Assembly: GCA_014055465.1 (NCBI GenBank)
Contig: WIAF01000003.1
Span: 1 to 64,000 of the forward strand
Reading direction: 5' to 3'
DNA from: Nitrospira sp. CR1.1
Lineage (GTDB): Bacteria > Nitrospirota > Nitrospiria > Nitrospirales > Nitrospiraceae
Length of the DNA stretch: 64,000 nucleotides
A model generated the notes under the pieces. It saw only the letters and a list, made by a program, of their open reading frames with translations. It was not told the DNA's origin and did not search any database. Positions 1,416-58,541 of the stretch are shown here, piece by piece; position 1 is the first letter of the stretch; each line of letters opens with the position of its first letter. Position numbers and translations under genes: made by a program.

Positions 1416-1464
1416 TCAAACTAGGGCCATGCCTAGTTTGAGGATCGCCACATCCTGTTAGTCT
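1416..1464 (+). promoter_or_regulatory. CTAG-palindrome promoter P1 (YtxH gene)
   Basis: The clearest copy of the recurrent element: arms TCAAACTAGG and CCTAGTTTGA (10 bp each, perfect) around GCCATG. A TAGTCT -10-like hexamer lies at 1459-1464, 22 nt after CCTAG. The YtxH start is about 100 nt further on. Confidence 0.65.
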
Positions 1465-2625: not shown

Positions 2626-2670
2626 CTAGGGCTCTGCCCAGTTCAAAGGTCACCTTCGCACCGTTAATCT
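2626..2670 (+). promoter_or_regulatory. CTAG-palindrome promoter P2 (DUF883-DUF1469 operon)
   Basis: CTAGG-GCTCTG-CCCAG at 2626-2641, then 23 nt, then TAATCT at 2665-2670. The first gene of the operon starts at 2723. Confidence 0.6.
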
Positions 2671-13518: not shown

Positions 13519-13563
13519 CTAGGCCCCTCCCTAGCTCCCATGTCCGCCATGTCCCGTTAGGGT
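13519..13563 (+). promoter_or_regulatory. CTAG-palindrome promoter P4 (FAD/Rieske oxidoreductase)
   Basis: CTAGG-CCCCTC-CCTAG at 13519-13534, 23 nt, then TAGGGT at 13558-13563. The gene starts at 13626. Confidence 0.6.
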
Positions 13564-17130: not shown

Positions 17131-17488
17131 GAAGTGACCAGTCTCTCCAAACCTCGCACTCCCTTTCTCGCTGATGCAATCTTGCGCCACTCTCTCCTTC
17201 GCGAGCCGACACATTCTTCTTCCGATCGTCAGCAGGCTCAAAGACGCCATGCTCTCGCGTCGGCAGTAAGATTGGCTTCCAGGGTTTCTGCCCACTAGTG
17301 GAATTGCCCCTGGCGTTGCGGAGAAGAGCCGTCGGCGAAAGAACCTGCCTCGACCAGGGGCATACCCAGTAGCCGAATCAATCGACCCATCTTAGAATTC
17401 ACACGCAAGGCGGCTCAGGAGACCTCACAGGATATCAGGAGACTCTGTCGGTCTCTCCATTGCTCTCTCCCAGTCGAGGCACAGAATC
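17131..17488. other. Intergenic stretch, nothing recognised
   Basis: Some 350 bases without a supported gene. A CTAGT at 17295 is not followed by a correctly spaced half-site. Confidence 0.5.
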
Positions 17489-19174: not shown

Positions 19175-19219
19175 CTAGGGGAGCGCCTAGTGGCCCTCAA
19201 GGAGAATGTTTTCTATCAT
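19175..19219 (+). promoter_or_regulatory. CTAG-palindrome promoter P5 (zinc/winged-helix protein)
   Basis: CTAGG-GGAGCG-CCTAG at 19175-19190, 23 nt, TATCAT at 19214-19219. The start at 19271 follows. Confidence 0.65.
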
Positions 19220-22740: not shown

Positions 22741-22786
22741 AGCCTATCCAGTTTTTGCCGCGATACCCAGCTAGTCAGACCCCTAG
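22741..22786 (-). promoter_or_regulatory. CTAG-palindrome promoter P6a (PLD-VTT gene)
   Basis: CTAGG-GGTCTG-ACTAG on the minus strand (22786-22771), 24 nt, TAGGCT (22746-22741). It is back to back with P6b. Confidence 0.5.
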
Positions 22787-23928: not shown

Positions 23929-23940
23929 ATGATTCACACT

Positions 23941-24045
23941 AGTTCGTCGTGCAATCGCCGGGTCACGGTGCGAGACCGGCGCGCGGAGGCGGGAGGACCC
24001 GTGGCGTACCCGTGCAGGACGTTGAGGGGCCGAGGGGCGAGCCCG
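23941..24045. repeat. CTAG-type MITE-like repeat, partial copy 2
   Basis: The core TTCGTCGTGCAATCGCCGGG through GGGGCCGAGGGGCGA matches copies at 2319 and 44733. The left terminus is missing where the preceding MITE ends at 23928, so one element seems to have landed on the other. From 24046 to about 24390 nothing is recognised. Confidence 0.5.
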
Positions 24046-24391: not shown

Positions 24392-24470
24392 CTAGGAACT
24401 TCCCTGGGTTTTGCATGAGGTGCGCTAGCACTTTGCCTAGTTGTGATGCAGATGGAGACAACGATAGAGT
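24392..24470 (+). promoter_or_regulatory. Double CTAG-palindrome promoter P7/P8 (hybrid kinase 1)
   Basis: Two elements: CTAGG-AACTTC-CCTGG (24392-24407) and CTAGC-ACTTTG-CCTAG (24425-24440), centres 33 bp apart, three helical turns. TAGAGT at 24465-24470 lies 24 nt after the second. This places transcription after the GTG/ATG at 24443-24446 and favours the ATG at 24524 as start. Confidence 0.6.
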
Positions 24471-24523
24471 CGCCGTTAGAAGCAGACTTTTGTGTCTCCA
24501 CGCCTGCAATCAGGAACCTATAT

Positions 24524-26512
24524 ATGCCCAACCATATGCCAGACCCTGGCGACATCACCCCGTCCATTCCCCAATCCGGGTTTCCGCTGGATTTCATGCT
24601 GGCGCACCTGGCAGCCATCGTGGAATGTTCCGACGATGCCATCATTTCCAAGGATCTCAACGGGACGATCACCAGTTGGAACAGAGGCGCCCAACACCTG
24701 TTCGGTTATGCGGCCCCTGAAATGATCGGGCAACCAGTGAAGCGCCTGATCCCGGAAGACCGATTGAACGAAGAGCCGCGCATTCTGGAACGACTTCGCA
24801 TGGGGGAGCGCATCGATCATTATGAAACCGTGCGGCGACGCAAAGACGGGACCTTGATCGAGATCTCGCTTTCCGTATCGCCGATCAAGAATCAGGAAGG
24901 GCGGATCGTCGGGGCGTCGAAAATCGCGCGGGGGATATCTGATCTGAAACAGGGTGAACGGAACCTGGCCAATCTGCTGGAGACTCTGCCGGCCGCCGTC
25001 TATACCACCGATGCCGAAGGCCGGATTACCCGGTATAACCAGGCGGCCCTCGATCTCTGGGGCCGCCAGCCGCCCCTCGGGGTCTCCCGCTGGTCCGGCT
25101 CCTGGCGCCAATACTGGACCGACGGACGACTCATGCCGGCGTCGGAATGTCCCTTGGCGCAATCGCTCGCACTCAATCGCCCGATCCGCGGCCTGGAGAC
25201 CATCATCGAACGGCCGGACGGCGCCCGCCTCCCGGTCGCCTCTCACACCGCGCTTCTTCGCAACGCGTCCGGCGCTGCGATCGGCGGAGTGGACATCCTG
25301 GTAGATCTGACCGAACAGAAACGGGCTGAACGGGAACTGCAGAATTCCGCCGCCGAACTCGAGCGGCGGATCGTCGAACGCACGGGAGAACTGCTCCTCT
25401 CGCAGGAACGCCTGCGGGCCTTGGCCTCCGACCTGACTCTGACTGAGCAACGGGAACGTCGGCATCTCGCGACTGAATTGCACGACTACCTGGCACAGCT
25501 TGTGGTGGCGAGCCGGATCCGGCTCGCGCAAGTCATTCCGACCATTCATGATGCCTCAGCCTCGGTTGCTCTGTCGAAAATCGATGAGATGCTCGATCAG
25601 GCGTTGACCTACACCCGTTCGTTGGTCGCCGAGCTGAGTCCCCATATTCTGTACCAATTCGGGCTGTCGCAGTCGCTGGTCTGGCTGGGTGAACAGATGA
25701 AGCACCATGGTCTTGACGTGGCTGTCAAAACGATGGCGCCGCCGTTCACCCTGCAGGACGATCAAGCCGTGTTGTTATTCCAGTCGGTTCGCGAACTCCT
25801 CTTTAATGTCATCAAACATGCCAAGGTCGACCGCGCCGCTGTGACCATTAATGTGGATGAAGATCGTCAAGAGTTGTGGATTTGCGTGGAAGATGAAGGA
25901 ATCGGGTTTGATGTCATGGAACCTGGCATCACGAAGAACACCAGGGCTCACTTCGGCCTACTGAGCATCAGGGAACGCATGGAGCTGCTCGGAGGCGAGT
26001 GCGATGTGTCGTCCGTCCAGGGAAGCGGCACGGCGGCCATCCTCCGGCTTCCCCTGGCATCCGTCTCCGTCCAATCTGCATTCGCGCTCACCCCGGAAGC
26101 TCCGCATGCGCCGCCGCCTTCCCCCAAAGCCTCATCGCGCAACATTTCCATACTTCTCGTGGACGATCATGCCATGGTCCGGCAGGGTCTTCGCAGCATA
26201 CTCAACGCGTACGACAATCTGACGGTGGTTGGGGAAGGAGCTGACGGCCAGGACGCCGTCATGATGGCTCGCTCGCTACATCCGGACGTCGTCATTATGG
26301 ATGTGAATCTCCCCATCATCGACGGCATCGAGGCCACGCGCATTCTCACTCAAGAACATCAATCCATCACCGTGATCGGCATTTCCGTTCGCAATGACCC
26401 GCAAGTTCAATACGCCATGACCGGGGCGGGGGCGGTCGCCTTTCTGCCCAAAGAATCCGCGGCTGATCAGCTGTACGAAGTGATCGTTCGCCATTTTCCT
26501 GTCCAAGCCTAA
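24524..26512 (+). CDS. PAS-HisKA_3 hybrid histidine kinase with C-terminal receiver (kinase 1)
   Basis: A 662-residue soluble sensor. Order: PAS1 (SDDAIISKDLNGTITSWNRG), PAS2 (residues about 140-260), coiled coil, HisKA_3 with the phosphoacceptor in ATELHDYLAQL, HATPase_c (LLFNVIKHAKV, DEGIGF), and a receiver domain with DDHAMVRQG and acceptor Asp in VVIMDVNLP. There is no DNA-binding domain, so the receiver must pass or sink phosphate. HisKA_3 kinases (NarX/DegS type) normally pair with LuxR-type regulators, of which two lie 11 kb downstream. AGGAA precedes ATG 24524; the longer frame starts at 24443, inside the promoter. Its paralogue follows directly. Confidence 0.88.
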   Translation: MPNHMPDPGDITPSIPQSGFPLDFMLAHLAAIVECSDDAIISKDLNGTITSWNRGAQHLFGYAAPEMIGQPVKRLIPEDRLNEEPRILERLRMGERIDHYETVRRRKDGTLIEISLSVSPIKNQEGRIVGASKIARGISDLKQGERNLANLLETLPAAVYTTDAEGRITRYNQAALDLWGRQPPLGVSRWSGSWRQYWTDGRLMPASECPLAQSLALNRPIRGLETIIERPDGARLPVASHTALLRNASGAAIGGVDILVDLTEQKRAERELQNSAAELERRIVERTGELLLSQERLRALASDLTLTEQRERRHLATELHDYLAQLVVASRIRLAQVIPTIHDASASVALSKIDEMLDQALTYTRSLVAELSPHILYQFGLSQSLVWLGEQMKHHGLDVAVKTMAPPFTLQDDQAVLLFQSVRELLFNVIKHAKVDRAAVTINVDEDRQELWICVEDEGIGFDVMEPGITKNTRAHFGLLSIRERMELLGGECDVSSVQGSGTAAILRLPLASVSVQSAFALTPEAPHAPPPSPKASSRNISILLVDDHAMVRQGLRSILNAYDNLTVVGEGADGQDAVMMARSLHPDVVIMDVNLPIIDGIEATRILTQEHQSITVIGISVRNDPQVQYAMTGAGAVAFLPKESAADQLYEVIVRHFPVQA

Positions 26513-26528
26513 TGAAACGAAGACCGAA

Positions 26529-26573
26529 CTAGGGGATCCCCCAGTAGCGTCTGGCTTCCGACTCGCCTATAAT
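26529..26573 (+). promoter_or_regulatory. CTAG-palindrome promoter P9 (hybrid kinase 2)
   Basis: CTAGG-GGATCC-CCCAG (26529-26544), exactly 23 nt, then a perfect TATAAT (26568-26573). It is the best -10 in the set and anchors the spacing rule. The leader to 26718 would be about 137 nt. Confidence 0.7.
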
Positions 26574-26717: not shown

Positions 26718-29700
26718 ATGACTTCGGTGCTGCTGACGCTGCAACGTCTGGTCCCCTCAGCCGCCGGATTGGCCATCGGGTTCCCGGTCTTTGCCTTCCT
26801 TTGCTGGGCTTACAACCCTGCCTTGTTCTCCAACCTATTGCCCTCCACTGGAACGGTGAAGCCGATGACCATGGCAGCGGTCTTGTTTTGCGGGATATCG
26901 CTGTGGCTACAGGCCGACGAGCAGGCCGTGACGCGGACGAAGCGGCGTCTCGCACAGGGCTTCGCGGGCCTTGCCTGCCTCCTGGCGGCTCTCACGATGG
27001 TGGAATACCTGCTGTCCACCGATCTGGGTATCGATCTCTGGTTTACCACCATTCCTGATTGGGCCGTGGATTCCCATCCCGGCCGGATGGCTCCCGCCAC
27101 AGCCTTCGCGATCCTCATGTTGGGCCTGGCATTGTTCCGGATCGACTCGAACCACACCAACCACGAGAATGCCAGCCATTATCTGGCGCTCCTCGGTGGA
27201 ACCGTTGGCGCGATTGCGCTCGTCGGCTATCTCTACCGCGTGCAAACCCTCTACAAGGTCGGGACATCTAACACCATTTCCATTTTCAGCGCCGCCCTCC
27301 TACTCACGCTTGGTCTCGGTATTCTCAGCGCCCGCCCGAACCGAGGGTTCATGTCCACCCTGACAAGCGAACATCTCGGAGCCGTGATGTTGCGGCGCCT
27401 CCTCCCCTTCGCCATTGCCCTGCCGATTCTCGCCGGATGGATTCGTATCGCCGCTCAGCGGTCAGGCCGCTACGACTTCAATTTCGGAGTGGCGTTGGCG
27501 GTGGCTGGGGTCATGTTGATCATGCTGGCCTTTCTGTGGTTTCTCGCCGGCAACCTCAACCGCACCGACCGCCAAAAAAAACATATTCTGCAAATACTTC
27601 AACAACGCGAAGCCCGACATCGTCTGGCGCTGAAAGCCGGCCGCATGGGCACCTTCCACCAGGACCTTGACCGCCAGACATTGGTCTTTTCGCCCGAACT
27701 GGAGAGCATTTTCGGATTGCCCGCGATGACGTTCGGCAGCACCTTCGCCGCATTCCAGGACCTGGTTCATCCCGAGGACCGGATCCGCGTGCAGCAGACG
27801 ATCAACGGAGCCATCCAAGACCGCAGCGCATACGATGTGGAATGCCGCATCCTCCGCCAGGGCTCTCCCGGCGAGGCCTGGATCGCGATCACCGGACAGG
27901 TCCTTCCCGATTCCGCCGGCCATCCGCGGCAAATCACTGGCGTGATGTTTGATATCACGGAGCGCAAACAGTCCGACAGCGCCTTGAAAGAAAGCGAAGA
28001 GCGGTTCCGCCATCTTTTTGAACAGGCTTCAGACGGGATCGTCACGGCGGACATGAACGGGCAATACCTTGATGTAAACAGCCGCGCATGCCAGATGTTG
28101 GGGTATACGCGTGAGGAGCTGTTCGACTTACGGGTCACCGACCTCCTGGATCCGCATGACTCCCCACGCTTGAGAACGATCCAAAGAGAATTGATTCAGG
28201 GGCATCGGCATTCCGGAGAATGGAAATTACGCAGAAAAGACGGGGGAACCATTTCCGTCGAAATCAGCGCCAAATTGCAACCGGATCGGCGCTGGCATGC
28301 CATTGTGAGAGACATTACCGAACGCAAGCGGGCCGACGCGGGGTTGCGCGAAAGCGAAGCCTATTTTCGCATGTTGGCGGATGCCACTCCGGTGCTGGTC
28401 TGGAAGGCCGGAACGGATCGACTCTGTTCCTGGCTTAATCGATCCTGGTTGGAGTATACGGGACGCCGCCTTGATGATGAACTGGGGACCGGACGTACCG
28501 ATAGTGTTCATCCTGACGACCGGGCCGATTTCATCCGGATCTACACCACGCACTTCTCCCGACAGGAGCCATTCGAACTGGAATATCGGCTGCGTCGGCA
28601 GGACGGAACCTACGGATGGATCCTGGACCGCGGCGTCCCGCTGCTCAGCGCCGCCGGAGTGTTCAGCGGGTACCTTGGTGCGGCGCTCGACATCACGGAC
28701 CGGAAACTGGCCGAAGAACAACTGCAGAAGTGGACGGTGGAACTGGAACAGCGCGTGAACGAACGCACGCAAGCACTCGTACATTCCCAGGCGCGCCTCC
28801 GCGCCCTGGCGTCCGATCTCAGCGCCACGGAACAGCAGGAGCGTCGCCGGCTCGCCACGGAGCTGCACGATTACCTCGCGCAGTTGCTGGTCGTCGCCCG
28901 CATGAAACTCAGCCAGGCCAGACCGCAGGTGCGTGATCCAAAAACAGAACACCTGCTGGGCGAGGCGGATGAGATGCTGACCCAATCGCTCAACTATACG
29001 CGATTTCTTGTGGCCGAACTGAGTCCGCAGGTTCTGTATCAATTCGGCCTGCCTGCCGCACTCAAATGGCTCGCCGGGCAAATGAAATCGCACGGACTGT
29101 CCGTCGCGACCCATTGTGAGGTGGACCAGCTTCCGCTCGCTGAAGAAAGCGCCGTGATTTTGTACCAGAGTGTCCGGGAACTCTTGTTCAATGTGGCGAA
29201 ACACGCAGGCACTGACCAAGCGATGATCACACTCGCTCTGGGTTCGGGCAATCAGGTGATCATTACCGTGTCCGATAAAGGATCCGGCTTTAATCCGGCC
29301 ATTCTGCAGGACACCGACCGGCAGCATCCGGGACGATTCGGGCTCTTTAACGTTCAGGAACGCATCGAAGCGGTCGGCGGCTGCCTCAGCCTGACATCTG
29401 CAGTCGGATCAGGAACCGCCGTTACACTCAGCGCACCTCTCAATCCTCCTTCAGACTCGACTTCCGAATCGAGCATGGCCCTGCCCGAGCCTGTGCCCGA
29501 TACGCCACATCCTCCTTCGCATCGATTGCGGATCCTTCTGGTCGACGACCATGCGATGGTGCGTCAGGGATTGCGGAGTGTCTTGGAGAGTTACACTGAT
29601 CTCGAGGTCGTCGGAGAAGCGGGCGACGGGGATGCGGCGATTAGTATTGCCGCCGCGTTAAAACCGGATGTCGTGGTGATGGACATCAACATGCCGAAAA

Positions 29701-29894
29701 TCGACGGCATCGAAGCCACCCGCCATATCCTCAGCGAGCATCCGGATGTCGTGGTGATCGGCCTCTCGGTTCAGAACGAGCGGCATATCGAGGACGCCAT
29801 GCTCAAGGCCGGGGCCGCAGTCTTTGTCACCAAAGAATGCGCCGCCGGCCAGCTCTACGAAGCCATTGTCAGCACTGTGCGAACCAGGAAGTAA
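26718..29894 (+). CDS. Membrane-bound multi-PAS HisKA_3 hybrid histidine kinase (kinase 2)
   Basis: A 1058-residue protein. Residues 1-290 hold seven or eight hydrophobic helices, a MASE-like integral membrane sensor. Three PAS/PAC units follow (FGLPAMTFGSTFAAFQDLVH; FEQASDGIVTADMNGQYLDV; DATPVLVWKAG). HisKA_3 (ATELHDYLAQLLVVARMKLS), HATPase_c (LLFNVAKHAG, DKGSGF) and a C-terminal receiver (DDHAMVRQGLRSVLE, acceptor Asp in VVVMDINMP) complete it. The region from the kinase core to the end closely resembles kinase 1, so the pair arose by tandem duplication with a new sensor. No DNA-binding domain. GGAGG lies upstream of the ATG at a rather long distance. Confidence 0.88.
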   Translation: MTSVLLTLQRLVPSAAGLAIGFPVFAFLCWAYNPALFSNLLPSTGTVKPMTMAAVLFCGISLWLQADEQAVTRTKRRLAQGFAGLACLLAALTMVEYLLSTDLGIDLWFTTIPDWAVDSHPGRMAPATAFAILMLGLALFRIDSNHTNHENASHYLALLGGTVGAIALVGYLYRVQTLYKVGTSNTISIFSAALLLTLGLGILSARPNRGFMSTLTSEHLGAVMLRRLLPFAIALPILAGWIRIAAQRSGRYDFNFGVALAVAGVMLIMLAFLWFLAGNLNRTDRQKKHILQILQQREARHRLALKAGRMGTFHQDLDRQTLVFSPELESIFGLPAMTFGSTFAAFQDLVHPEDRIRVQQTINGAIQDRSAYDVECRILRQGSPGEAWIAITGQVLPDSAGHPRQITGVMFDITERKQSDSALKESEERFRHLFEQASDGIVTADMNGQYLDVNSRACQMLGYTREELFDLRVTDLLDPHDSPRLRTIQRELIQGHRHSGEWKLRRKDGGTISVEISAKLQPDRRWHAIVRDITERKRADAGLRESEAYFRMLADATPVLVWKAGTDRLCSWLNRSWLEYTGRRLDDELGTGRTDSVHPDDRADFIRIYTTHFSRQEPFELEYRLRRQDGTYGWILDRGVPLLSAAGVFSGYLGAALDITDRKLAEEQLQKWTVELEQRVNERTQALVHSQARLRALASDLSATEQQERRRLATELHDYLAQLLVVARMKLSQARPQVRDPKTEHLLGEADEMLTQSLNYTRFLVAELSPQVLYQFGLPAALKWLAGQMKSHGLSVATHCEVDQLPLAEESAVILYQSVRELLFNVAKHAGTDQAMITLALGSGNQVIITVSDKGSGFNPAILQDTDRQHPGRFGLFNVQERIEAVGGCLSLTSAVGSGTAVTLSAPLNPPSDSTSESSMALPEPVPDTPHPPSHRLRILLVDDHAMVRQGLRSVLESYTDLEVVGEAGDGDAAISIAAALKPDVVVMDINMPKIDGIEATRHILSEHPDVVVIGLSVQNERHIEDAMLKAGAAVFVTKECAAGQLYEAIVSTVRTRK

Positions 29895-33559: not shown

Positions 33560-33623
33560 CGCGACCTCCTCTCTCCGCGTCAAACTTTGCGCTCACAGTA
33601 AAAGAATAGGACAGAGAGACGTA

Positions 33624-33639
33624 CTAGGCACATCCCTGG
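33624..33639. promoter_or_regulatory. CTAG-palindrome element P11
   Basis: CTAGG-CACATC-CCTGG. On the minus strand only a weak hexamer (TTTACT, 21 nt downstream) is seen, so promoter function is uncertain. It faces the small amber-interrupted frame and, 300 nt further, the ferritin-like gene. From 33640 to 33846 nothing is recognised. Confidence 0.4.
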
Positions 33640-34491: not shown

Positions 34492-35127
34492 TCAGCGTGA
34501 AATGGAAATGGATGACAAGCCCGCTTGAAGCCTCTCTTCGACCATGTTCCATCCGATGTTGCTGAAAAACGATTCGATATACTGTTTGCGCTCGCCGGGT
34601 TGATAGTCCAGAAGGTAGGCGTGTTCCCATACGTCCATGACGAGAATGGGCAAAAAACCCGCCACGTTTCCCTGTTCATGCAACGACACCCAATGGTTGG
34701 AGACAAGCCCCCTCGCGGGGTCCACATTACAGACCGCCCATCCCACCCCGCGCATCATTCCCACACTGCAGAAGTCCGCCTTCCAGCGCTCGTAGCCGCC
34801 GAACGTGCGCTCCACTGCTCTATTGAAGGCCGAGCCCTCCGGGGGCCGCTTTGCTCCTCCCCGACGAAGATTCCCAAAATAATATTCATGCAGCACCATT
34901 CCGTTGAATTCAAATCCCAGCCTGCGCGTCAGATCGGAATAGGCCGGCACTTGTTCGTGATCGAGGTCCCCGCGCGCCATGAGCTCGGACAATTGATCGC
35001 GCAGTTCGTTGGCCGCTTTGACATAACCCTCATAGAGACCGAAGTGGACTCGGAGCGTTTCATCTGAGATACCGGACAAACCGAACAGATCATAACTCCT
35101 GGCTCGATACGGTTGAGTCGCGGCCAT
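34492..35127 (-). CDS. Iron/manganese superoxide dismutase
   Basis: A 211-residue SOD of the Fe/Mn family converting superoxide to peroxide and oxygen. Ligands: His in RVHFGLYEGYV, His in LHEYYFGNL, and Asp/His in VMDVWEHAYLLDYQPGERKQYIESFFSNIGW. The sequence diverges from E. coli SodB (single His in place of HHGKHH; E-Y-Y-F), resembling the distinct Fe/Mn-SOD clade of several environmental phyla. No signal peptide, so cytoplasmic. AGGAAAGGG precedes ATG 35127; the frame extends upstream through promoter P12a. Downstream come the Pro-rich and 98-residue frames. Confidence 0.88.
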   Translation of the reverse strand: MAATQPYRARSYDLFGLSGISDETLRVHFGLYEGYVKAANELRDQLSELMARGDLDHEQVPAYSDLTRRLGFEFNGMVLHEYYFGNLRRGGAKRPPEGSAFNRAVERTFGGYERWKADFCSVGMMRGVGWAVCNVDPARGLVSNHWVSLHEQGNVAGFLPILVMDVWEHAYLLDYQPGERKQYIESFFSNIGWNMVEERLQAGLSSISISR

Positions 35128-35171: not shown

Positions 35172-35216
35172 ACCTTACCCCCGCACGGGAAGCGTCCCAA
35201 CTAGGTGTTACCCTGG
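35172..35216 (-). promoter_or_regulatory. CTAG-palindrome promoter P12a (sodB)
   Basis: Minus strand CCAGG-GTAACA-CCTAG (35216-35201), 23 nt, TAAGGT (35177-35172). Start of sodB at 35127. It is back to back with P12b. Confidence 0.6.
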
Positions 35217-35232: not shown

Positions 35233-35277
35233 CAGGGGAGGTTCCTAGGCGTACTTCTTCTGTGATTTCTGTAAGAC
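35233..35277 (+). promoter_or_regulatory. CTAG-type promoter P12b (LuxR-type response regulator)
   Basis: CAGGG-GAGGTT-CCTAG (35233-35248) with a degenerate left arm, exactly 23 nt, TAAGAC (35272-35277). The regulator gene starts at 35414, so it may control its own synthesis. Confidence 0.5.
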
Positions 35278-35413
35278 CGGTCTATGGGGAGACTTGCTTG
35301 ACGGAAAGGACCGGTGCAAATATTGGCCGGGACTGGTATGGTAAGGCGCATGTGATGGCCGTCGCCCGTATCAGATCCATTGGACCGAGTCGTCCGCGAG
35401 GGGAAGGAGCACC

Positions 35414-36070
35414 GTGGCTAGAGCGCGCATTGTCATCGCCGATGACCATAGTTTAGTGTTGGAAGCCTATCGGCAATTGCTGGAGCCGGACTATGAGGTG
35501 GTCGGCACGGCCTCGAATGGGCAGGAACTCCTGGACATCGCCCCCGCCTTACATCCGGATATCGTCATGCTCGACATTTCCATGCCGACCATGAACGGCT
35601 TGGAAGTCACGAAGCTGCTGCGAGCCGCAGTTCCTCAGGCCAGGATTATATTTGTGACGATGATGAGCGAACCCTTTTATATTTCGCAGGCCTTTCAGAT
35701 GGGCGCTTCGGCCTATGTCCTGAAACAGTCTGCCTCTACGGAATTGTTGTCTGCCCTGAAGGCCGCACTCAGGAATCAGCGGTACATTTCACCGCAACTG
35801 TCCCTCGAGGTGCAGGATGCCATCGAAACGCCCTGGGTCAAACCGGAAGGGTTTTCCTCCAAATTGACCCCTCGTCAGCAAGAGGTGCTGCAGCTGCTGA
35901 CAAAAGGCATGTCCACGAGAGAAATTGCCACGACCATGCGCGTCTCCACGAAGGCCGTTGAATTCCACAAGGGCAATATCACGCGCCGCCTCGGCATCCG
36001 CACCACCGCGGAGCTGACGCGCTTTGCCCTCTCGCAAGGCCTTACGACACTGAACGACCAACACCCCTGA
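35414..36070 (+). CDS. LuxR/NarL-type response regulator 1
   Basis: A 218-residue regulator. Receiver domain (residues 4-120): IVIADDH, acceptor Asp in DIVMLDISMPTMNG, switch Thr in IIFVTMMS, Lys in YVLKQS. C-terminal LuxR helix-turn-helix (about 145-210): LTPRQQEVLQLLTKGMSTRE, then VSTKAVEFHKGNITRRLGI. GTG start with GGGGAAGGAG upstream. Divergent from sodB and preceded by the same CTAG promoter type as the putative regulon. No kinase is adjacent; the HisKA_3 kinases at 24.5-29.9 kb are the nearest plausible partners. It is the leading candidate to bind the CTAG palindrome. Confidence 0.93.
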   Translation: MARARIVIADDHSLVLEAYRQLLEPDYEVVGTASNGQELLDIAPALHPDIVMLDISMPTMNGLEVTKLLRAAVPQARIIFVTMMSEPFYISQAFQMGASAYVLKQSASTELLSALKAALRNQRYISPQLSLEVQDAIETPWVKPEGFSSKLTPRQQEVLQLLTKGMSTREIATTMRVSTKAVEFHKGNITRRLGIRTTAELTRFALSQGLTTLNDQHP

Positions 36071-36074
36071 CTGA

Positions 36075-36758
36075 TCAGGACTGAGAGCCGGGTACCGTGG
36101 GCTGCTGCGGCATGGCAATGAGCCCGATTGCAATGGCGTGTTTGGTGAGTTCTGCGGTGCTGCGGATCCCGAGTTGCTTCATGATGCGAGTTTTGTGAAA
36201 TTCGACGGTTTTGAGAGACACGTTGAGAGTCGAGGCAATTTCCTTCATCGATTGGCCTTCGGCGATCAGCTGAAGAACTTCCCGCTGCCGGCCGCTGAGC
36301 AGGTCGTTGGATGGCGGCGAACCGGCCGGAGCCGGCGGAACCGGATTGAGCGCTTGCGCCACCAGATTTTCCGCCACGCTGGGAGACACGTACAGCCGCC
36401 CTTTCAACACTTCCATAATCGCGAACACCAGTTCCTCCGACACGGATTGCTTCAAGACATACCCGGAGACGCCGGCGCGAAAGGCCTCCGTCACAAAATA
36501 TTGCTCGCTATGCATCGTCAGCACGAGCAGTTTCACCTGCGGAACCGACTTCTTGATCTGCCGGCAGGCATCGAGTCCGTTCAGCAGAGGTAGCGCGATA
36601 TCCACCAGGGCGATATCGGGCTTCTCCTTTTCAACGGCTCGAACGAGCGCGCGCCCGTCAGCGACCCTGCCGCACAATTGAAAACCGTGTTCCAGCAGCT
36701 TTTCTATACCCTCCGCAACGAGGGTGTGGTCATCGGCGATGAGTACTCGTGGTTTCAT
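36075..36758 (-). CDS. LuxR/NarL-type response regulator 2
   Basis: A 227-residue regulator convergent with regulator 1 (stops 5 nt apart). Receiver: VLIADDHTLVAEG, acceptor Asp in DIALVDIALPLLNG, VLTMHSE, YVLKQS. The linker carries a Pro-rich stretch (NPVPPAPAGSPPS). LuxR HTH: LSGRQREVLQLIAEGQSMKE, then VSLKTVEFHKTRIMKQLGI. GGAGCG precedes ATG 36758. The recognition helix (LKTVEFHKTRIMK) differs from regulator 1 (TKAVEFHKGNITR), so the targets may differ. No CTAG element upstream. Confidence 0.93.
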   Translation of the reverse strand: MKPRVLIADDHTLVAEGIEKLLEHGFQLCGRVADGRALVRAVEKEKPDIALVDIALPLLNGLDACRQIKKSVPQVKLLVLTMHSEQYFVTEAFRAGVSGYVLKQSVSEELVFAIMEVLKGRLYVSPSVAENLVAQALNPVPPAPAGSPPSNDLLSGRQREVLQLIAEGQSMKEIASTLNVSLKTVEFHKTRIMKQLGIRSTAELTKHAIAIGLIAMPQQPTVPGSQS

Positions 36759-36846: not shown

Positions 36847-38163
36847 TCACAATTCTTTCGACCAGAAAAAAATGATGCCATGCCCGCCCTTGGTGGGCGG
36901 CGCCCCGCCCGGGTCCCGATAGATGCCAAAATTGTACGTGTAATTTAATTCCACCTGTGATTTCCATGGGGCGCCCGTCACCAATCCGCCGCCTACAGCC
37001 GGCATCGAGTCCGTGATATTTTTGACCGCATTGCTCGATGTAAAAACGGGACGCTCGACCAGCCCCCAGGTCGCCTCCACGTAGGGATACATAAAAAATA
37101 CGGCCTCGTAGCGATATTGCAGATTGGCCACGGCATAACGGGTCGGAAATAATTCGTTGAAGGCCACGCCGTGGATCATCGGGAGAGAGATGGCCTCCCA
37201 TTCATACCCGGTCGGCCGTCCCGGAAGCCGGAAGGCCGAAAATCGATCCAGGTCTTTCCCGATCCCCGCATGGACACTGCTCAACAAACGATGCTTGTCA
37301 CTGTCGATGAACGGCAATCCCGTTGCCAGCAACGCATAGGCGCTGGCTTGAATGTACGTCCGCTCCTTTTTGAAGTCCGGGGTATTGAACGGGGCGCCTC
37401 CCCATTGATCCCACTTCGCTCGGTGGCCGTGCAGCAGATCACCGCCCATGGTGAACCCTTCATGCGGAAGCTCCATCAGATTTCGTTTGAGCGCATCGGC
37501 CCGTATTCGAAAATGAATGCGGCCTTCATACGTGTCCTTCGGCACGCCATATTCCGCGGACGTGTGGCCGGTGCCCTTGAACCAACGATACCCCGCTTCG
37601 TAGGTGACTGAAATGTTCACCGCGCTGTCCTGCCGAAATGGATGGACCGGAAGCCGGTAGCCCAGCCCGGCGCCGGCAAAGGCATAGCTCCACTCCAACT
37701 CGGTGCCTCGCTGACGTTGTCCTTGAACATACTCCGACCGGCCTAATGGAAGGATGAAGTTGTCCCACGTGAACAGGAGCGACCAGTTCGGGTAGTCGCG
37801 TAGCCCGATCGTGTAGTCCACGTCGTTCACGACCCCGGAAAAAGTACCGCGAAGACGCCGGTTGTCATCATCCCAATTGCGCCAGACATAGAGGGCGCCA
37901 AACGGAAGCATTTCCTGCTGGGCCGGTCCATTAGGAATAGCCTGAATCCCGAAGCTGATCGCCGTGACGCTCCGGCGGTCCCTGGGAGGCACATAGATTT
38001 CCTCTCCGAATAAGGTGGTTCGAAAAGGCTCGCCGGCAATCGGCGTGGGTTCTTCGGCCAGCGCAACGTCTTGTTTTCCGCCGAGCATGACGCTCCCCGT
38101 TACCCAGACACTTACTATGCAGACACTCAGACGACAGAACCATTCACACGCAGCACGACGCAT
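36847..38163 (-). CDS. Outer-membrane beta-barrel protein
   Basis: A 438-residue exported protein. The N-terminal signal is unusually long (cleavage near ALAEE, residue 37). Alternating aromatic strands run throughout (GALYVWRNWDDDNRRLRGTF, WSLLFTWDNFILPLG, ELEWSYAFAGAGLGYRL, VNISVTYEAGYRWF, LQYRYEAVFFMYPYVEATWG). The last strands SQVELNYTYNFGIYRD and HGIIFFWSKEL resemble surface-antigen/BamA-type barrels, though no POTRA domains are present. Function unknown. Preceded by P13. Confidence 0.75.
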   Translation of the reverse strand: MRRAACEWFCRLSVCIVSVWVTGSVMLGGKQDVALAEEPTPIAGEPFRTTLFGEEIYVPPRDRRSVTAISFGIQAIPNGPAQQEMLPFGALYVWRNWDDDNRRLRGTFSGVVNDVDYTIGLRDYPNWSLLFTWDNFILPLGRSEYVQGQRQRGTELEWSYAFAGAGLGYRLPVHPFRQDSAVNISVTYEAGYRWFKGTGHTSAEYGVPKDTYEGRIHFRIRADALKRNLMELPHEGFTMGGDLLHGHRAKWDQWGGAPFNTPDFKKERTYIQASAYALLATGLPFIDSDKHRLLSSVHAGIGKDLDRFSAFRLPGRPTGYEWEAISLPMIHGVAFNELFPTRYAVANLQYRYEAVFFMYPYVEATWGLVERPVFTSSNAVKNITDSMPAVGGGLVTGAPWKSQVELNYTYNFGIYRDPGGAPPTKGGHGIIFFWSKEL

Positions 38164-38216: not shown

Positions 38217-38262
38217 CTTATATGTCAGCCGCGGCACATCTGCGCCCTAGTGAACTCCCTAG
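38217..38262 (-). promoter_or_regulatory. CTAG-palindrome promoter P13 (outer-membrane barrel gene)
   Basis: Minus strand CTAGG-GAGTTC-ACTAG (38262-38247), then 24 nt, TATAAG (38222-38217). The gene starts at 38163. Confidence 0.6.
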
Positions 38263-41655: not shown

Positions 41656-41700
41656 CTAGGGGGACGCCTAGTAGAGATCCTCAATGGAGGCTTATAGAAT
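41656..41700 (+). promoter_or_regulatory. CTAG-palindrome promoter P14 (Pro-rich exported protein)
   Basis: CTAGG-GGGACG-CCTAG (41656-41671), exactly 23 nt, TAGAAT (41695-41700). This rules out the ATG at 41704 as start and supports 41752. Confidence 0.65.
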
Positions 41701-42586: not shown

Positions 42587-42631
42587 CTAGGGGGCCGCCT
42601 AGTTCAGAATTGCAAAGACACATCGTTATGA
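42587..42631 (+). promoter_or_regulatory. CTAG-palindrome promoter P15 (glycosyltransferase)
   Basis: CTAGG-GGGCCG-CCTAG (42587-42602), 23 nt, TTATGA (42626-42631) on the plus strand, pointing at the GT4 gene 138 nt further. No good hexamer on the minus strand. Confidence 0.5.
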
Positions 42632-44235: not shown

Positions 44236-44595
44236 CTACCAATAGGGCTTATACCCATAATGGGTATGCAGCCGCTCGGCCCAGGCAGAATCCGCCATGT
44301 CAGGCCACCGGTCCTTGTCGAACCCTTCCGCCTGCTCCAACCGTTCCCGGGACACATTCAGGATGAAGAAATCTCCTCCCGCGGAAATCGTCAGCGCGCC
44401 CCACGGAAGGGCGAACAGTTTATCGCCCAAGCCGAGAAACCCTCCGAAGGACAGCACGGCATACGCAATCCGTCCCTGGCCTAGATCGATCATGAGCGAA
44501 TCAATCTCTCCCAGATCCTCGCCTGCCGCGTTTTGAACCGCGGTGCCTTCGATCGTTGAAGCTGCGACTAATCGTCGACCAATATGTGTGGCCAT
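44236..44595 (-). CDS. PRC-barrel domain protein
   Basis: A 119-residue protein with one PRC-barrel: STIEGTAVQNAAGEDLGEID, LMIDLGQGRIAYAVLSFGG, and FALPWGALT. A short acidic tail (DKDRWPDMADSAWAERLHTH) follows, a common Nitrospira and proteobacterial arrangement. PRC-barrels are small beta folds involved in RNA processing or photosystem assembly; here it is free-standing and probably stress-related. GAGGAGGAG precedes ATG 44595. Promoter P16 lies about 100 nt upstream. Confidence 0.85.
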   Translation of the reverse strand: MATHIGRRLVAASTIEGTAVQNAAGEDLGEIDSLMIDLGQGRIAYAVLSFGGFLGLGDKLFALPWGALTISAGGDFFILNVSRERLEQAEGFDKDRWPDMADSAWAERLHTHYGYKPYW

Positions 44596-44691
44596 CACTC
44601 TCCTCCTCTGCTGTATAGGCATCACTCTCCAGGTGTCTGTATGGGATTCTTTCTCCGCCCTCGTCCATCGAGATCAACCCTCTTCCTTTTA

Positions 44692-44736
44692 GTAATACCC
44701 CCCGAACCTTTCAGGAGCAGCTAGGAAGGCCCCTAG
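44692..44736 (-). promoter_or_regulatory. CTAG-palindrome promoter P16 (PRC-barrel gene)
   Basis: Minus strand CTAGG-GGCCTT-CCTAG (44736-44721), exactly 23 nt, TATTAC (44697-44692). Its outer CTAG (44733-44736) is also the tip of the adjacent MITE. Confidence 0.65.
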
Positions 44737-44928
44737 CCCACCTTATTCTTGACGGTCCGTCGTGAAATCGCCGAGTCACATGGCGAGACCGGCGCGCGGA
44801 GCCGGGAGGACTCGTGGCGTCCTCGTGCAGAACGGTGAGGGGCCGAGGGGCGACGCCGACGGCCAAAGGCCCGTCGCAGCAGTGAATCGGCGAGTGCAGC
44901 AGAAGTGCTCACGAATAAGGCGGGCTAG
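44733..44928. mobile_element. MITE-like element, complete copy of the CTAG-type repeat
   Basis: A 196-bp element with 20-bp terminal inverted repeats matching at 18 positions: left CTAGCCCACCTTATTCTTGA, right (read inwards) CTAGCCCGCCTTATTCGTGA. CTAG at both tips suggests a 4-bp target duplication. It has no transposase. Partial or diverged copies lie at 2319, 15241 and 23941. The insertion abuts operator P16. Confidence 0.7.
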
Positions 44929-49510: not shown

Positions 49511-49602
49511 CTAGGCGGATCCCCGGATCATCCTTGCCCGCACTGTATGTTCTTGAACCAGGGAGTCTCCTAGTGCTCTCCCGCGAATTTGCTTCTTAGG
49601 AT
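49511..49602 (+). promoter_or_regulatory. CTAG-type promoter P18/P19 (zinc ribbon 2)
   Basis: Two elements: CTAGG-CGGATC-CCCGG (49511-49526) and CCAGG-GAGTCT-CCTAG (49558-49573). After the second, exactly 23 nt, TAGGAT (49597-49602). The gene starts at 49657. Confidence 0.55.
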
Positions 49603-51226: not shown

Positions 51227-52633
51227 TTACGCGCGAGGTTTTCGGCGGCGATCCAACATCCAGCGCGTGACACCGAGCTGCTTTGCAGCTAACGTTTTGT
51301 TCCCGCCGGAACGGGCCAACACTTCTTCGATGATCCGGTCTTCCAGATCGGCCAGGGTCTGCGCACCAACCTGAAAACTGATGTGAACCTGTGCTTGATC
51401 AACAGGTGATGCACTGGGAGGAGGAGTCGCGGGAAATGCGCGGACCGATGTGGAGGCTGCCTGCTGAACGTCTCCGGGAAAGTTGGCAGCTTCCAGGGTC
51501 GCCCCTCCGCAGAACAAGACGGCGCGCTCTATCAAATTGCTCAGTTCCCGCACATTGCCGGGAAGCTGATACTCATACAGTAACGCCTGCGCGCTGGCTC
51601 CCAACGCCCGGACCGGTTTTGTGAGAGCCAACGCCGACCGGGTCAGGAATTGTTCCGCCAAAGGAATGATATCCTCCCGCCTCTCGCGGAGCGGCGGGAC
51701 GACCAGGGTCACGACATTCAATCGGAAGTACAGGTCCTCCCGGAACTCTCCCTTGGCTACCGCCTCCTTCAAATTACGATTGGTCGCAGCCATCACCCGG
51801 ACATCGATGGGGATGTTCGCGGCGCCGCCGACCCTGCGGATCGTGCGTTCTTCCAATACCCGGAGCAGCTTCGCCTGCAACGCCAGCGGCAAGTCCCCGA
51901 TTTCGTCAAAAAAGATGGTTCCCCCATCGGCCAACTCGAGCAGACCGCATTTTCTGCCGGCCGCTCCGGTAAAAGCCCCCTTTTCATGCCCGAACAGCTC
52001 GCTCTCGAAAAGGTCCCGAGGGATCGAGGGGCAGTCCACCTCCACACAAGGCTTTCCGGCGCGGGGGCTGTTGTAATGGATGACCCTGCCCATGTACTGC
52101 TTGCCGGTTCCCGTTTCGCCTTGCAGCAACACCGTCACCCGGTCGTTTTTAATGAGTTCCTGCAGGTGGGCCAGAAAGGTTCTGGTGACGGGACTTCGGG
52201 CAATCACACGATCGAGCGCATACCGGGCAGCATCCTGTCCGCTGTGCAACTGCACCTGACGCTGCAGCGTCAGAAACTCCGTCGCCCGCCGGAGCGTGTG
52301 AAGAAGATCGTCCATATCAATGCTCTTGGCGACGAAATCAAACGCGCCCAGCCGCATCGCCTCCACCGCATCTTTCACCGTCCCCCTCGCGGTCAACACA
52401 ATGACCGGAAGCCCCGGCACTATCTGTTTCACCCGGGCTAATACATCCAACCCGGAAAGATTCGGCATCACAAGATCAGCGACGAGCACATCGGGCTCAA
52501 AGGACCGCAGGAGTCCCAGGGCCTCCTCTCCGGAGCCGGCCGTTTGCACGACGTACCCCTGATCGCGCAGGCGCAAGGCAAACGCCTCACGAACCGACAC
52601 CTCATCTTCCAGCAACAACAGTTGCCACGCCAT
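51227..52633 (-). CDS. NtrC-family sigma-54-dependent response regulator
   Basis: A 468-residue regulator. Receiver (LLLLEDEVSVREAFALRLRD; acceptor Asp in DVLVADLVMPNLSG), AAA+ domain with Walker A GETGTGKQ, the sigma-54 contact GAFTGA, Walker B GGTIFFDEIGDLP, and R-finger region, then a Fis-type HTH (NKTLAAKQLGVTRWMLDRRR). ATG 52633 is preferred since the receiver begins four residues later; GTG 52666 is possible. It directly follows its probable kinase (52707) and lies beside the PII-like/dabA/dabB genes. No clear -24/-12 promoter was found there by eye. Confidence 0.93.
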   Translation of the reverse strand: MAWQLLLLEDEVSVREAFALRLRDQGYVVQTAGSGEEALGLLRSFEPDVLVADLVMPNLSGLDVLARVKQIVPGLPVIVLTARGTVKDAVEAMRLGAFDFVAKSIDMDDLLHTLRRATEFLTLQRQVQLHSGQDAARYALDRVIARSPVTRTFLAHLQELIKNDRVTVLLQGETGTGKQYMGRVIHYNSPRAGKPCVEVDCPSIPRDLFESELFGHEKGAFTGAAGRKCGLLELADGGTIFFDEIGDLPLALQAKLLRVLEERTIRRVGGAANIPIDVRVMAATNRNLKEAVAKGEFREDLYFRLNVVTLVVPPLRERREDIIPLAEQFLTRSALALTKPVRALGASAQALLYEYQLPGNVRELSNLIERAVLFCGGATLEAANFPGDVQQAASTSVRAFPATPPPSASPVDQAQVHISFQVGAQTLADLEDRIIEEVLARSGGNKTLAAKQLGVTRWMLDRRRKPRA

Positions 52634-52706
52634 ATCAGGACATTCCGCCTTCCAGGCGACCGCCACACATCAGGTGTTTCGTATGCATACCTATCCCGAT
52701 TCTCCG

Positions 52707-54731
52707 TTAGACTTCGCGGCGGATCGGCAACCAGACATCAACCACCGCCCCCTGACCCGGCGGGCTTTGAAGGACGAGCTGGCCATGGTGGCGCTCGACA
52801 ATGTCCCTGGTGATGGTGAGGCCGAGCCCTACTCCTTTTGCCTTTCCCTTCGTAAAAAACGGTTCGTAAATCCGCTTCAAATCCTCCGCCGCAATGCCCT
52901 TCCCCCCATCGGCGAACCGCATCAACACACCGGGCACACGCCGGAGCTCCGGCGTCAGAGAGGCGTATACATTGCCGCCGCCGGGCATCGCATCGATGGC
53001 GTTCATCACAATATTGAGGCAGACCTGAAGGATATGAGCACGAGAAGCCTCGACGGCCGGAAGGTCAGGCGCAACGGAAGTCCTGATCAGAATCTGATGC
53101 TTCACAAGGTTCGGCCGGAGCAGCGTCAACGTATCGTCTAAGACCGAAGCCAGGTCGCAGGCGGCGATATCGAAGGGCCTGGGCCGCAACTGACCCAGGT
53201 GGGACTCTAGAAGCTCATCGATTCTCGACGCTTCCCGAGCAATCAACCGGCACCGGTCACGGGCCTCCTGAGGGAGGGACGTTTGCTCGGCCAAATGCGT
53301 CGCCAAGCTGCCCAGGCCAATGAGCGGATTCCGGACCTCATGCAAAATGCCCCCGGCGAGCTGGCCTACCAGCTTGACCTGTTCAGTGTGGCGGAGGGCT
53401 TCCAACATCTGCTCGCGCTCGCTGAGATCGGTCAGAATCGCCATGAAGTATTGCGTCGTGCCGTCGGAGGCCTTCACCGGGCTGACACTTTCCCAGACCA
53501 GGAACTCCGATCCGTCCTTCCGCCGGTTGACGAACCGCTCCACAAACGGCTGCCCGGCGCGAATCGATTGCCAGAGCCGTTCGTAGAATTCTGGCGAATG
53601 TTTGCCTGATTTCAAAATCACGGGACGCTGGCCGAGGGCCTCCTTGCGCGTCCATCCCGTCATACGCTCCAGGGCCGGATTCCAATCCACGATTCTACCA
53701 GCCGTGTCGGTCATCATCACCCCGTCTTGCGCGGACAGGAACAGACGATGATAAAAATCCATCTGCGTTTCTTCGTGCCGACGGCGCTCCAGCACCGCCC
53801 CGATGGTATTCGCCATCGTGCAGAGGAATTCCTGCTCCTTCTGCGTGAACCGGCGGACACGTTTCGAGTGGGCGGTCATCACGCCATAGACACGATCCTC
53901 GACCAGCATCGGCACACACATGCCGGCGACCGCGCCATGTTCCGTCAGCAGCTTCGAAGGGGAAAACCTCGTTTCCCGCTGGAGATCCTCGACCACCACC
54001 GGAACCCGTTCCCTGATCGCATAGCCGGCCTGCGAATGCGTGCCGCCTTCGATCGTCAATTTCCCGATGAGGTCCTGCCGCAGCCCGCTCCCCGCCATGA
54101 TGTACAGCTGGCCGTCCGGTTCGCGAGGCACCAAAATTTTGCACAGCTCCACATCCAGAGCCGCCGCCGTTTCCTTCACCGCCTCGTTCATCAGCTCTTG
54201 GGCCGACATACCGCTGACGCCCAGCGTGCCGATCCGCGCCAGCACCGATTGGAACCGCGCCACCTGCGACGCGTCTTGCGCCAGCAGCACGCGTTCCGTC
54301 ACGTCCTCCAACACCATCAGGACGCCGCGCTCTCCGCGGTAGGGCACCACGTTGAACCGGCAGTCGTAATACAGGGAGCGTCCGTCATGAGCCATCAGCC
54401 GGTATTCCTTGCTCTTCCGCGAGCCGAGATCCTGCTGGTTCCAGACAATGGCATCATCCAACAGGCGTTTCCGCAGAGAAGGCTCCCCGCCCTCCGCCTG
54501 TGGCGAGGCGTTCTCCACCAATTCCGCAAATTGAGAGTTCTCGAAGATGAGAAGGCCCTTGCAGACGAAGCACAACCCGCCGTCAATACAGTCGCTCAAC
54601 CAGGCCAGGACCTCCGCGGCGGCGGGTTCGGACCGGATCGGCCGGGAGACTTTTGAACGGGTGCGGTGGGAGGAGGTCACATCAACGTCCTGCTCGTCCG
54701 GAGTCCTACGTGATCGATACGACACGTGCAT
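52707..54731 (-). CDS. PAS-GAF-PAS sensor histidine kinase (NtrB-like)
   Basis: A 674-residue soluble kinase. Order: PAS (about 45-150), GAF (about 165-320, with GYAIRERVPVVVEDLQRETR and GMCVPMLVEDRVYGVMTAHS), PAS/PAC (SAQDGVMMTDTAGRIVDWNP), HisKA with H-box GGILHEVRNPLIGLGSLATH, and HATPase_c (MNAIDAMPGGG, DGGKGI, GVGLGLTI). It belongs to the NtrB/ZraS style that pairs with NtrC regulators; its partner begins 74 nt downstream. No binding site is evident at ATG 54731. Confidence 0.9.
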   Translation of the reverse strand: MHVSYRSRRTPDEQDVDVTSSHRTRSKVSRPIRSEPAAAEVLAWLSDCIDGGLCFVCKGLLIFENSQFAELVENASPQAEGGEPSLRKRLLDDAIVWNQQDLGSRKSKEYRLMAHDGRSLYYDCRFNVVPYRGERGVLMVLEDVTERVLLAQDASQVARFQSVLARIGTLGVSGMSAQELMNEAVKETAAALDVELCKILVPREPDGQLYIMAGSGLRQDLIGKLTIEGGTHSQAGYAIRERVPVVVEDLQRETRFSPSKLLTEHGAVAGMCVPMLVEDRVYGVMTAHSKRVRRFTQKEQEFLCTMANTIGAVLERRRHEETQMDFYHRLFLSAQDGVMMTDTAGRIVDWNPALERMTGWTRKEALGQRPVILKSGKHSPEFYERLWQSIRAGQPFVERFVNRRKDGSEFLVWESVSPVKASDGTTQYFMAILTDLSEREQMLEALRHTEQVKLVGQLAGGILHEVRNPLIGLGSLATHLAEQTSLPQEARDRCRLIAREASRIDELLESHLGQLRPRPFDIAACDLASVLDDTLTLLRPNLVKHQILIRTSVAPDLPAVEASRAHILQVCLNIVMNAIDAMPGGGNVYASLTPELRRVPGVLMRFADGGKGIAAEDLKRIYEPFFTKGKAKGVGLGLTITRDIVERHHGQLVLQSPPGQGAVVDVWLPIRREV

Positions 54732-54797
54732 GCGCGCGGTGCCAGTATATCGGGCAGGCCCGACCGCGTCGAGAGGACGACGGGAGCGCCACCGTTG

Positions 54798-55121
54798 CTA
54801 GGGGACCACGAAATGATCCCGGCGGGTAACCGCGACGTCGCTCACGAACATGGCGCCCGAGTGTTTGTGGAACACCGGCCCTAGGCCGGCCAGAATCGGT
54901 TCGATGCGCTCTTCCGGCACCACGGTGAAGACGATCACCTGGCTGCTGGTGTCGTCGAACAACAGATGGCCTTCATGGAATCCATGATGGCCCTTGCCCG
55001 ACACATTGTTGATGATCGTGTACCCGGTCGCCCCCACCCGGTCCAACAGACCGGTGACGATTTTCAAATGTTCCCCTTCGACCACAATGCGAATCTCTTT
55101 CATCGGATGCAGTGTCAGCAT
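54798..55121 (-). CDS. PII-like regulatory protein of the DAB locus
   Basis: A 107-residue PII-superfamily protein: MKEIRIVVEGEHLKIVTGLL, DRVGATGYTIINNVSGKGHHG, and IVFTVVPEERIEPILAGL. It has the ferredoxin-like betaalphabeta repeat and the G-Y-T-I-x-x-x-x-G-x-G-x-H-G loop, but not the uridylylated Tyr loop of GlnB. In several autotrophs such proteins sit next to dab or sbt genes and may gate bicarbonate uptake; that role is inference. AGGAAGGGGG precedes ATG 55121; it follows dabA by 17 nt. Confidence 0.85.
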   Translation of the reverse strand: MLTLHPMKEIRIVVEGEHLKIVTGLLDRVGATGYTIINNVSGKGHHGFHEGHLLFDDTSSQVIVFTVVPEERIEPILAGLGPVFHKHSGAMFVSDVAVTRRDHFVVP

Positions 55122-55138
55122 ACTCCGCCCCCTTCCTG

Positions 55139-58507: not shown

Positions 58508-58541
58508 TCAATGACTCCGTTTCGCTGCCCGCGTGACCCGA

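Follow-up and report, generated by a model that had tools for sequence, protein, structure and literature searches.

In mycobacteria, dormancy is governed by the NarL-type regulator DosR/DevR, which is served by two kinases, activates its own gene and uses one palindrome to control the genes of stress and dormancy. The general stress cargo of the RpoS type in proteobacteria comprises pyruvate oxidase, trehalose synthesis, BON/OsmY-like proteins and glycogen enzymes. NarL-type regulators are the usual partners of HisKA_3 kinases. No other nitrite oxidisers are as widespread as Nitrospira, which are difficult to bring into culture or to manipulate. In the literature on this genus we found no operator and no stress regulon. 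The nearest described promoter layout is that of the LuxR-type regulator CrbR, which receives its input from a hybrid kinase and requires an inverted repeat at -52 to -36, just ahead of an RpoD promoter (PMC5715377). In this study we analysed a stretch of 64,000 nt from Nitrospira sp. CR1.1 (contig WIAF01000003.1), here called the window, and a 16-bp palindrome that recurs in it with the consensus (a)CTAGGG-N4-CCCTAG(t), drawn from this and related genomes. We consider it likely that NarL/FixJ-type response regulators bearing a VEFHK recognition helix use this palindrome as their operator, with one or both of two such regulators, RR1 and RR2, as the main readers of an island of stress, trehalose and glycogen genes.

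The palindrome is found at a fixed distance from a promoter element. Among 176 oriented sites drawn from this genome and related genomes, 25 have TANNNT at a distance of 23 nt and six at 24 nt, compared with about one per other offset. If the -10 element is placed at -12 to -7, the palindrome extends from about -51 to -36, directly 5' of the -35 position. The initial annotation had pointed to NarL/FixJ-type regulators as activating by overlap with -35, and the palindrome does abut the -35 region. The spacing within the palindrome is equally specific: CTAG-N8-CTAG occurs in 24 exact copies in the 4.44 Mb genome, nine of them within the first 45 kb of the window, and all other spacings in the range N4-N14, ten in number, add up to 35 CTAG pairs. 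In the window, ten CTAG-N0..12-CTAG pairs were observed against 1.7 expected, a number matched by none of 100 shuffles. The strict promoter pattern has 12 matches in the genome, nine of which fall in the window (reversed control: 2). Many bacteria have few CTAG tetranucleotides, so clusters of them could have other causes, and the sites might be non-regulatory, as would be CTAG islands linked to DNA structure or restriction. However, the fixed spacing to the -10 element, the conservation peaks in intergenic DNA (see below) and the enrichment of N8 alone make this highly improbable. The palindrome is very probably an operator of the NarL/FixJ response-regulator type, and the mechanism class of these promoters is well supported by the comparison of genomes. 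In the literature on CTAGG/CCTAG inverted repeats with response regulators we found only the CrbR-type precedent, which has another sequence.

The genes for RR1 and for a superoxide dismutase (sodB) are divergently oriented, and the gap between them holds two imperfect palindromes, P12a and P12b, one facing each gene (Table 1). In an alignment of 13 orthologous intergenic regions from Nitrospira these were the top two conserved 16-mers, with a conservation of 0.947 for P12a and 0.89-0.91 for P12b against a median of 0.567. The palindrome upstream of RR1 is kept in nearly all orthologues, even in those with 49-56% identity. Both claims made earlier for this gap, that RR1 is preceded by the CTAG promoter class and that sodB diverges from it with a further copy in between, were borne out, and the palindrome before RR1 is confirmed as real and conserved.

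Table 1. Coordinates of the genes and palindrome sites in the window
Feature	Position	Strand	Basis
Palindrome CTAGGGCCATGCCTAG, -10 candidates on both sides	1421-1436		
Palindrome + N23 + TAATCT	2626-2670	+	
Palindrome + N23 + TAGGGT, 5' end of FAD oxidoreductase/Rieske ORF	13519-13563	+	
Palindrome + N23 + TAGAAT, 5' of DUF748 gene	17354-17398	+	
Palindrome + N23 + TATCAT	19175-19219	+	
Palindrome CTAGTCAGACCCCTAG facing PLD/VTT and endonuclease genes; TAGGCT at 24 nt	22771-22786	-	
Two palindromes before HK1: CTAGGAACTTCCCTGG (24392) and CTAGCACTTTGCCTAG (24425; TAGAGT 24 nt downstream)	24392-24440	+	
HK1 hybrid kinase: PAS, HisKA_3 (ELHD), HATPase_c, C-terminal receiver	24443-26512	+	
HK2 promoter CTAGGGGATCCCCCAG-N23-TATAAT	26529-26573	+	
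HK2 hybrid kinase: PAS-rich, HisKA_3 (ELHD), HATPase_c, C-terminal receiver	26718-29894	+	
Palindrome + N23 + TACTGT	33595-33639	-	
sodB, Fe/Mn superoxide dismutase	34492-35127	-	Pfam Sod_Fe_C/N
P12a, palindrome CTAGGTGTTACCCTGG facing sodB; -10 TAAGGT at 35172-35177, 23 nt downstream	35201-35216	-	
P12b, palindrome CAGGGGAGGTTCCTAG facing RR1; -10-like TAAGAC at 35272-35277, 23 nt downstream	35233-35248	+	
RR1, NarL/FixJ (LuxR-type) response regulator, 218 aa	35414-36070	+	Pfam Response_reg + GerE
RR2, second NarL/FixJ response regulator, convergent with RR1	36075-36752	-	Pfam
o36847, conserved exported protein, 438 aa, co-oriented with and 5' of RR2 in this genus	36847-38163	-	Presumed operon
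Perfect palindrome CTAGTGAACTCCCTAG before o36847-RR2 unit	38247-38262	-	
Palindrome + N23 + TAGAAT	41656-41700	+	
Palindrome, TATGAT at 24 nt, 5' of glycosyltransferase gene	42587-42602	+	
Palindrome between PRC-barrel gene (44236-44625) and TreY; no -10 at 22-24 nt	44721-44736	-	
Palindrome + N23 + TAGGAT, just past GlgC gene	49558-49602	+	

RR2 and the site at 38247 had been overlooked in the initial annotation. Both regulators have a receiver followed by a GerE/LuxR helix-turn-helix (Pfam E-values for RR1: Response_reg 4e-28, GerE/LuxR 1.5e-16). The Asp and the conserved Lys of the receiver are found in VMLDISMP and YVLKQS of RR1, with Asp54 as phospho-acceptor as read from the sequence, and in ALVDIALP and YVLKQS of RR2. 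A helix alignment gives STKAVEFHKGN as the recognition helix of RR1 and SLKTVEFHKTR as that of RR2. The convergent arrangement was present in nearly every locus examined, the exceptions being truncated by contig ends, and wherever an RR1 orthologue was present among 147 Nitrospiraceae genomes an RR2 orthologue was present as well. The exported protein o36847 shares 71-91% identity with its counterparts in relatives and 71-74% with those in other genera; it had no match in Pfam, NCBIfam or PDB, and the one AF2 model made of it was unusable (pLDDT 35). In several relatives CTAGTGAAACCCCTAG occupies the position of the palindrome before this unit, and no TANNNT was found at 22-24 nt from the site at 38247. 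Since palindromes precede RR1 as well as the o36847-RR2 unit, the regulon seems to include both regulators.

Which of the two reads the palindrome is a question on which helix and promoter data can be set against each other. It might be possible that RR1 is the sole master regulator, with RR2 only modulating it. The palindrome is almost universal in the promoter of RR1 itself, not by way of an upstream gene, and the few genomes with V[LA]FHK as the RR1 helix have G less frequently at position five of the half-site (Fisher p 0.005, a post hoc comparison), a possible covariation of helix and operator. However, RR2 always accompanies RR1 and is the better conserved of the two (58-68% identity in other genera compared with 45-57%). 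Moreover, the RR1 helix is changed to VLFHK or VAFHK in five divergent loci whose genomes retain motif copies, whereas RR2 keeps VEFH[KR] there and has VEFH[KR] or IEFH[KR] throughout. Hence a single master RR1, as had been proposed, was not supported and we regard it as unlikely: its companion is present wherever RR1 is, more conserved, equipped with the same helix and apparently part of the regulon. Because the helix of RR1 varies while VEFH[KR] in RR2 and the motif persist, RR2 is at least an equal candidate. One might then take RR2 for the principal DNA-binding activator and RR1 for an auto-amplified partner or an antagonist competing for sites. The near-invariance of the RR2 helix (K/R and V/I exchanges only) and the stronger conservation of its orthologues would fit, as would genome G075, in which 55 CTAG-N8-CTAG copies go together with VLFHK in RR1 and VEFHR in RR2 (loci L098, L121 and others). 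Fewer genomes, however, have a palindrome in the upstream region of RR2 than in that of RR1, the site in this genus lying before o36847, and to us this version seems just as doubtful as the previous one. We prefer the reading in which RR1, RR2 or both are the main readers.

Signals to these regulators might come from two hybrid kinases of the island, HK1 and HK2, in both of which the phospho-accepting-His box ELHD of the HisKA_3 domain is intact. Both genes are preceded by palindromes (24392 and 24425 for HK1, 26529 for HK2), as had been claimed; the true start of HK1 is probably 24524 or 24536, 3' of its promoter. Homologues of the core or receiver of HK1/HK2 lie in the neighbourhood examined of 14 of the 30 divergent pair loci. 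None was found in control loci other than those picked by receiver homology (L054-L080), which contain kinases by construction and were left out of the count. From gene neighbourhood and family pairing, a phosphorelay from the hybrid kinases to RR1/RR2 is plausible.

At or near palindrome promoters we found genes for superoxide dismutase, the trehalose enzymes TreY and TreZ, GlgC, a glycogen debranching enzyme, a GH15 enzyme, a pyruvate-oxidase-like enzyme, BON and PRC-barrel proteins and phospholipase D/VTT. Two similar stretches (TCGTGNAATCGCCG.GTCAC...GCGAGACCGGCGCG) at about 23940-23990 and 44740-44790 each follow a CTAG site and have the look of a dispersed repeat. At 51227-60209 on the minus strand an NtrC-type regulator, a PAS/GAF kinase, a P-II protein, DabA and an Mrp/NADH-type subunit are encoded together; this group is an inorganic-carbon uptake module adjoining the stress island. 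Elsewhere in the genome a CTAG-N8-CTAG site lies 5' of a gene for a caspase-domain protein (Peptidase_C14; locus L041, G000:C3:424991 region).

The check suggested in the initial annotation, whether motif and regulator co-occur across genomes, came out in favour of co-occurrence. In the 147 Nitrospiraceae genomes, pair presence was called from E-values and adjacency, some genomes being incomplete, and the RR1/RR2 pair was found in 52. These carry a median of 21 CTAG-N8-CTAG copies and the 95 genomes without the pair a median of six (AUC 0.966), and the background per spacing (N9-N12) is 4-5 copies in both groups alike. The difference was repeated separately within the genera g1, g2, g6 and g9; because the genomes are related by descent, such correlations are not independent samples. 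In sampled Nitrospirota outside Nitrospiraceae CTAGGN6CCTAG is essentially absent (0-2 copies). Since RR1 and RR2 are always found together, co-occurrence is unable to favour one over the other. The strict promoters also cluster around the pair: in four complete or near-complete genomes, the last from another genus, 10 of 16, 8 of 10, 8 of 11 and 9 of 12 lie within 100 kb of RR1, a radius set after seeing the data. Clustering is weaker in G001, G011 and G096, and G117 and G075 show none.

Motif and pair do not coincide in every genome. G050 has the pair and only seven motif copies (background 3.25), and excess copies without the pair occur in G063 (15 copies against a background of 2), G027 and G101 and in the less complete G143 and G140. 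According to the initial annotation, genomes with many motif copies and no orthologue would refute RR1 as the master. This was partly found, because G055 and G063 lack the pair and still have a portion of the island, namely TreY, GlgC and PRC, with promoters bearing the palindrome, which speaks against RR1 as the sole master. The copies in such genomes would be accounted for if other regulators with a VEFHK helix read them, or if the pair was lost recently.

A DNA pattern for VEFHK matches exactly five regulators in this genome: RR1, RR2 and three paralogues, RR3 (contig C20), RR4 (C12) and RR5 (C2), which share the helix. In genomes without the pair, mean motif copies rise with the number of VEFHK regulators from zero to four (2.2, 5.9, 5.8, 9.0 and 12.2), with a background of 3.2 at zero and 4.4 at four. 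The correlation (Spearman 0.60) is significant within g6 and g9 and survives correction for genome size, and the density of control spacings does not follow the number of VEFHK regulators. RR3 is preceded by a HisKA_3 kinase gene of its own, with an NtrC/HK pair nearby (L110, G000:C20:8000-19000). One strong palindrome promoter lies just past RR3, aimed in L110 at an OEP/HlyD outer-membrane efflux operon, and the palindrome at this locus is present both in genomes that have the RR1/RR2 pair and in genomes that lack it. Possibly the RR3 locus is a metal- or envelope-stress switch on the same operator; other loci of this type are L113, L114 and L117. No strong palindrome was found close to RR4 or RR5.

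Given the trend in pair-less genomes and the RR3 site, the palindrome is tied to the VEFHK subfamily and not to RR1 alone. A factor of another type, such as a Crp/Fnr-type dimer encoded elsewhere, might nevertheless read the palindrome, with RR1 and RR2 being mere targets in the island: a 16-bp dyad near -43 is compatible with Crp/Fnr spacing, motif copies persist in some genomes that lack the pair, and the status of RR1/RR2 as targets could by itself yield the co-occurrence. Such a factor would not account for motif numbers that follow the number of VEFHK regulators in pair-less genomes, with no excess at zero, and would leave unexplained the private site of RR3 beside its own kinase and efflux genes. 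We therefore regard it as improbable, less so than non-regulatory sites but more so than either single-regulator scheme. At the other extreme, the helix might define a family-wide code: all VEFHK regulators of Nitrospiraceae, the five of this genome included, would read CTAG-N8-CTAG, RR1/RR2 (possibly as a mixed dimer) would run a sigma-factor-free response for stress and carbon storage, and the paralogues would be cross-wired by way of shared sites. We offer this only tentatively and think it has clearly less than an even chance of being correct.

Our preferred reading, with RR1 and/or RR2 as the main readers, would work as follows. The HisKA_3 hybrid kinases of the island would signal, presumably on stress, to the convergent pair inside the promoter cluster. 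A phosphorylated dimer of the VEFHK type, be it RR1, RR2 or a mixed dimer, would bind the palindrome at about -51 to -36, directly 5' of a weak -35 element. We infer activation rather than repression, namely class-II activation of a sigma70-type promoter whose -10 element TANNNT lies 23 nt from the palindrome. RR1/RR2 would turn on superoxide dismutase, TreY/TreZ, GlgC, glycogen debranching, the pyruvate-oxidase-like enzyme and BON genes, and by activating their own genes and the kinase genes might set up positive feedback. With the operator defined, its promoters listed and the candidate binding proteins narrowed to a few, a stress and storage programme of Nitrospira becomes testable in vitro or with reporters. 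In addition, the link between recognition-helix residues and operator offers a natural data set on site choice by NarL-type regulators.

Several known systems resemble parts of this one. RR1 and RR2 share their two-domain architecture with MctR, SsrB, NarL and GacA, their NCBIfam neighbours. The best-scoring NCBIfam model is that of MctR (172.6 bits for RR1 and 165.1 for RR2, cut-off 300), and as named equivalogs (MctR, NarL, GacA, ErdR/CrbR, FixJ, RcsB, SsrB) both proteins stay far under the curated cut-offs and belong to none of these families, RR1 reaching 79 of 390 bits with the ErdR model. Nor did the MctR paper offer an operator that matches the palindrome. The cargo of the island is similar to that of the RpoS response, although RpoS is a sigma factor and what we see here seems to be a response-regulator operator. 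In this genome no protein passes the cut-off of the RpoS model (TIGR02394, 378.7 bits), which only one control genome passes; the best, a sigma-70 family protein (G000:C11:134189-135022, minus strand) and possibly a group-2 sigma factor, reaches 329.6 bits, so that a sigma-based stress response might still be present. DosR/DevR, one of the proteins of solved structure that RR1 matches (DevR, 3c3w), is likewise an auto-activated NarL-type regulator with two kinases and a single palindrome over stress genes, but it has another operator, non-hybrid haem kinases and a single regulator instead of a convergent pair, and belongs to an unrelated phylum. CrbS/CrbR (ErdR), the acetate switch of gamma-proteobacteria, has the same type of regulator, a hybrid kinase and the same promoter geometry, with an inverted repeat 5' of -35 and an RpoD -10. 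However, its operator is GACC/GGTC-like (the ACTU motif, which is not the one seen here) and not CTAGGG-N4-CCCTAG, its kinase has an SLC5/STAC sensor and its targets are acetate genes. In conclusion, the island appears, from the comparison of genomes, to hold a new regulon of a known mechanism class, set apart from these systems by an unusual paired hub and an apparent helix-to-operator code.
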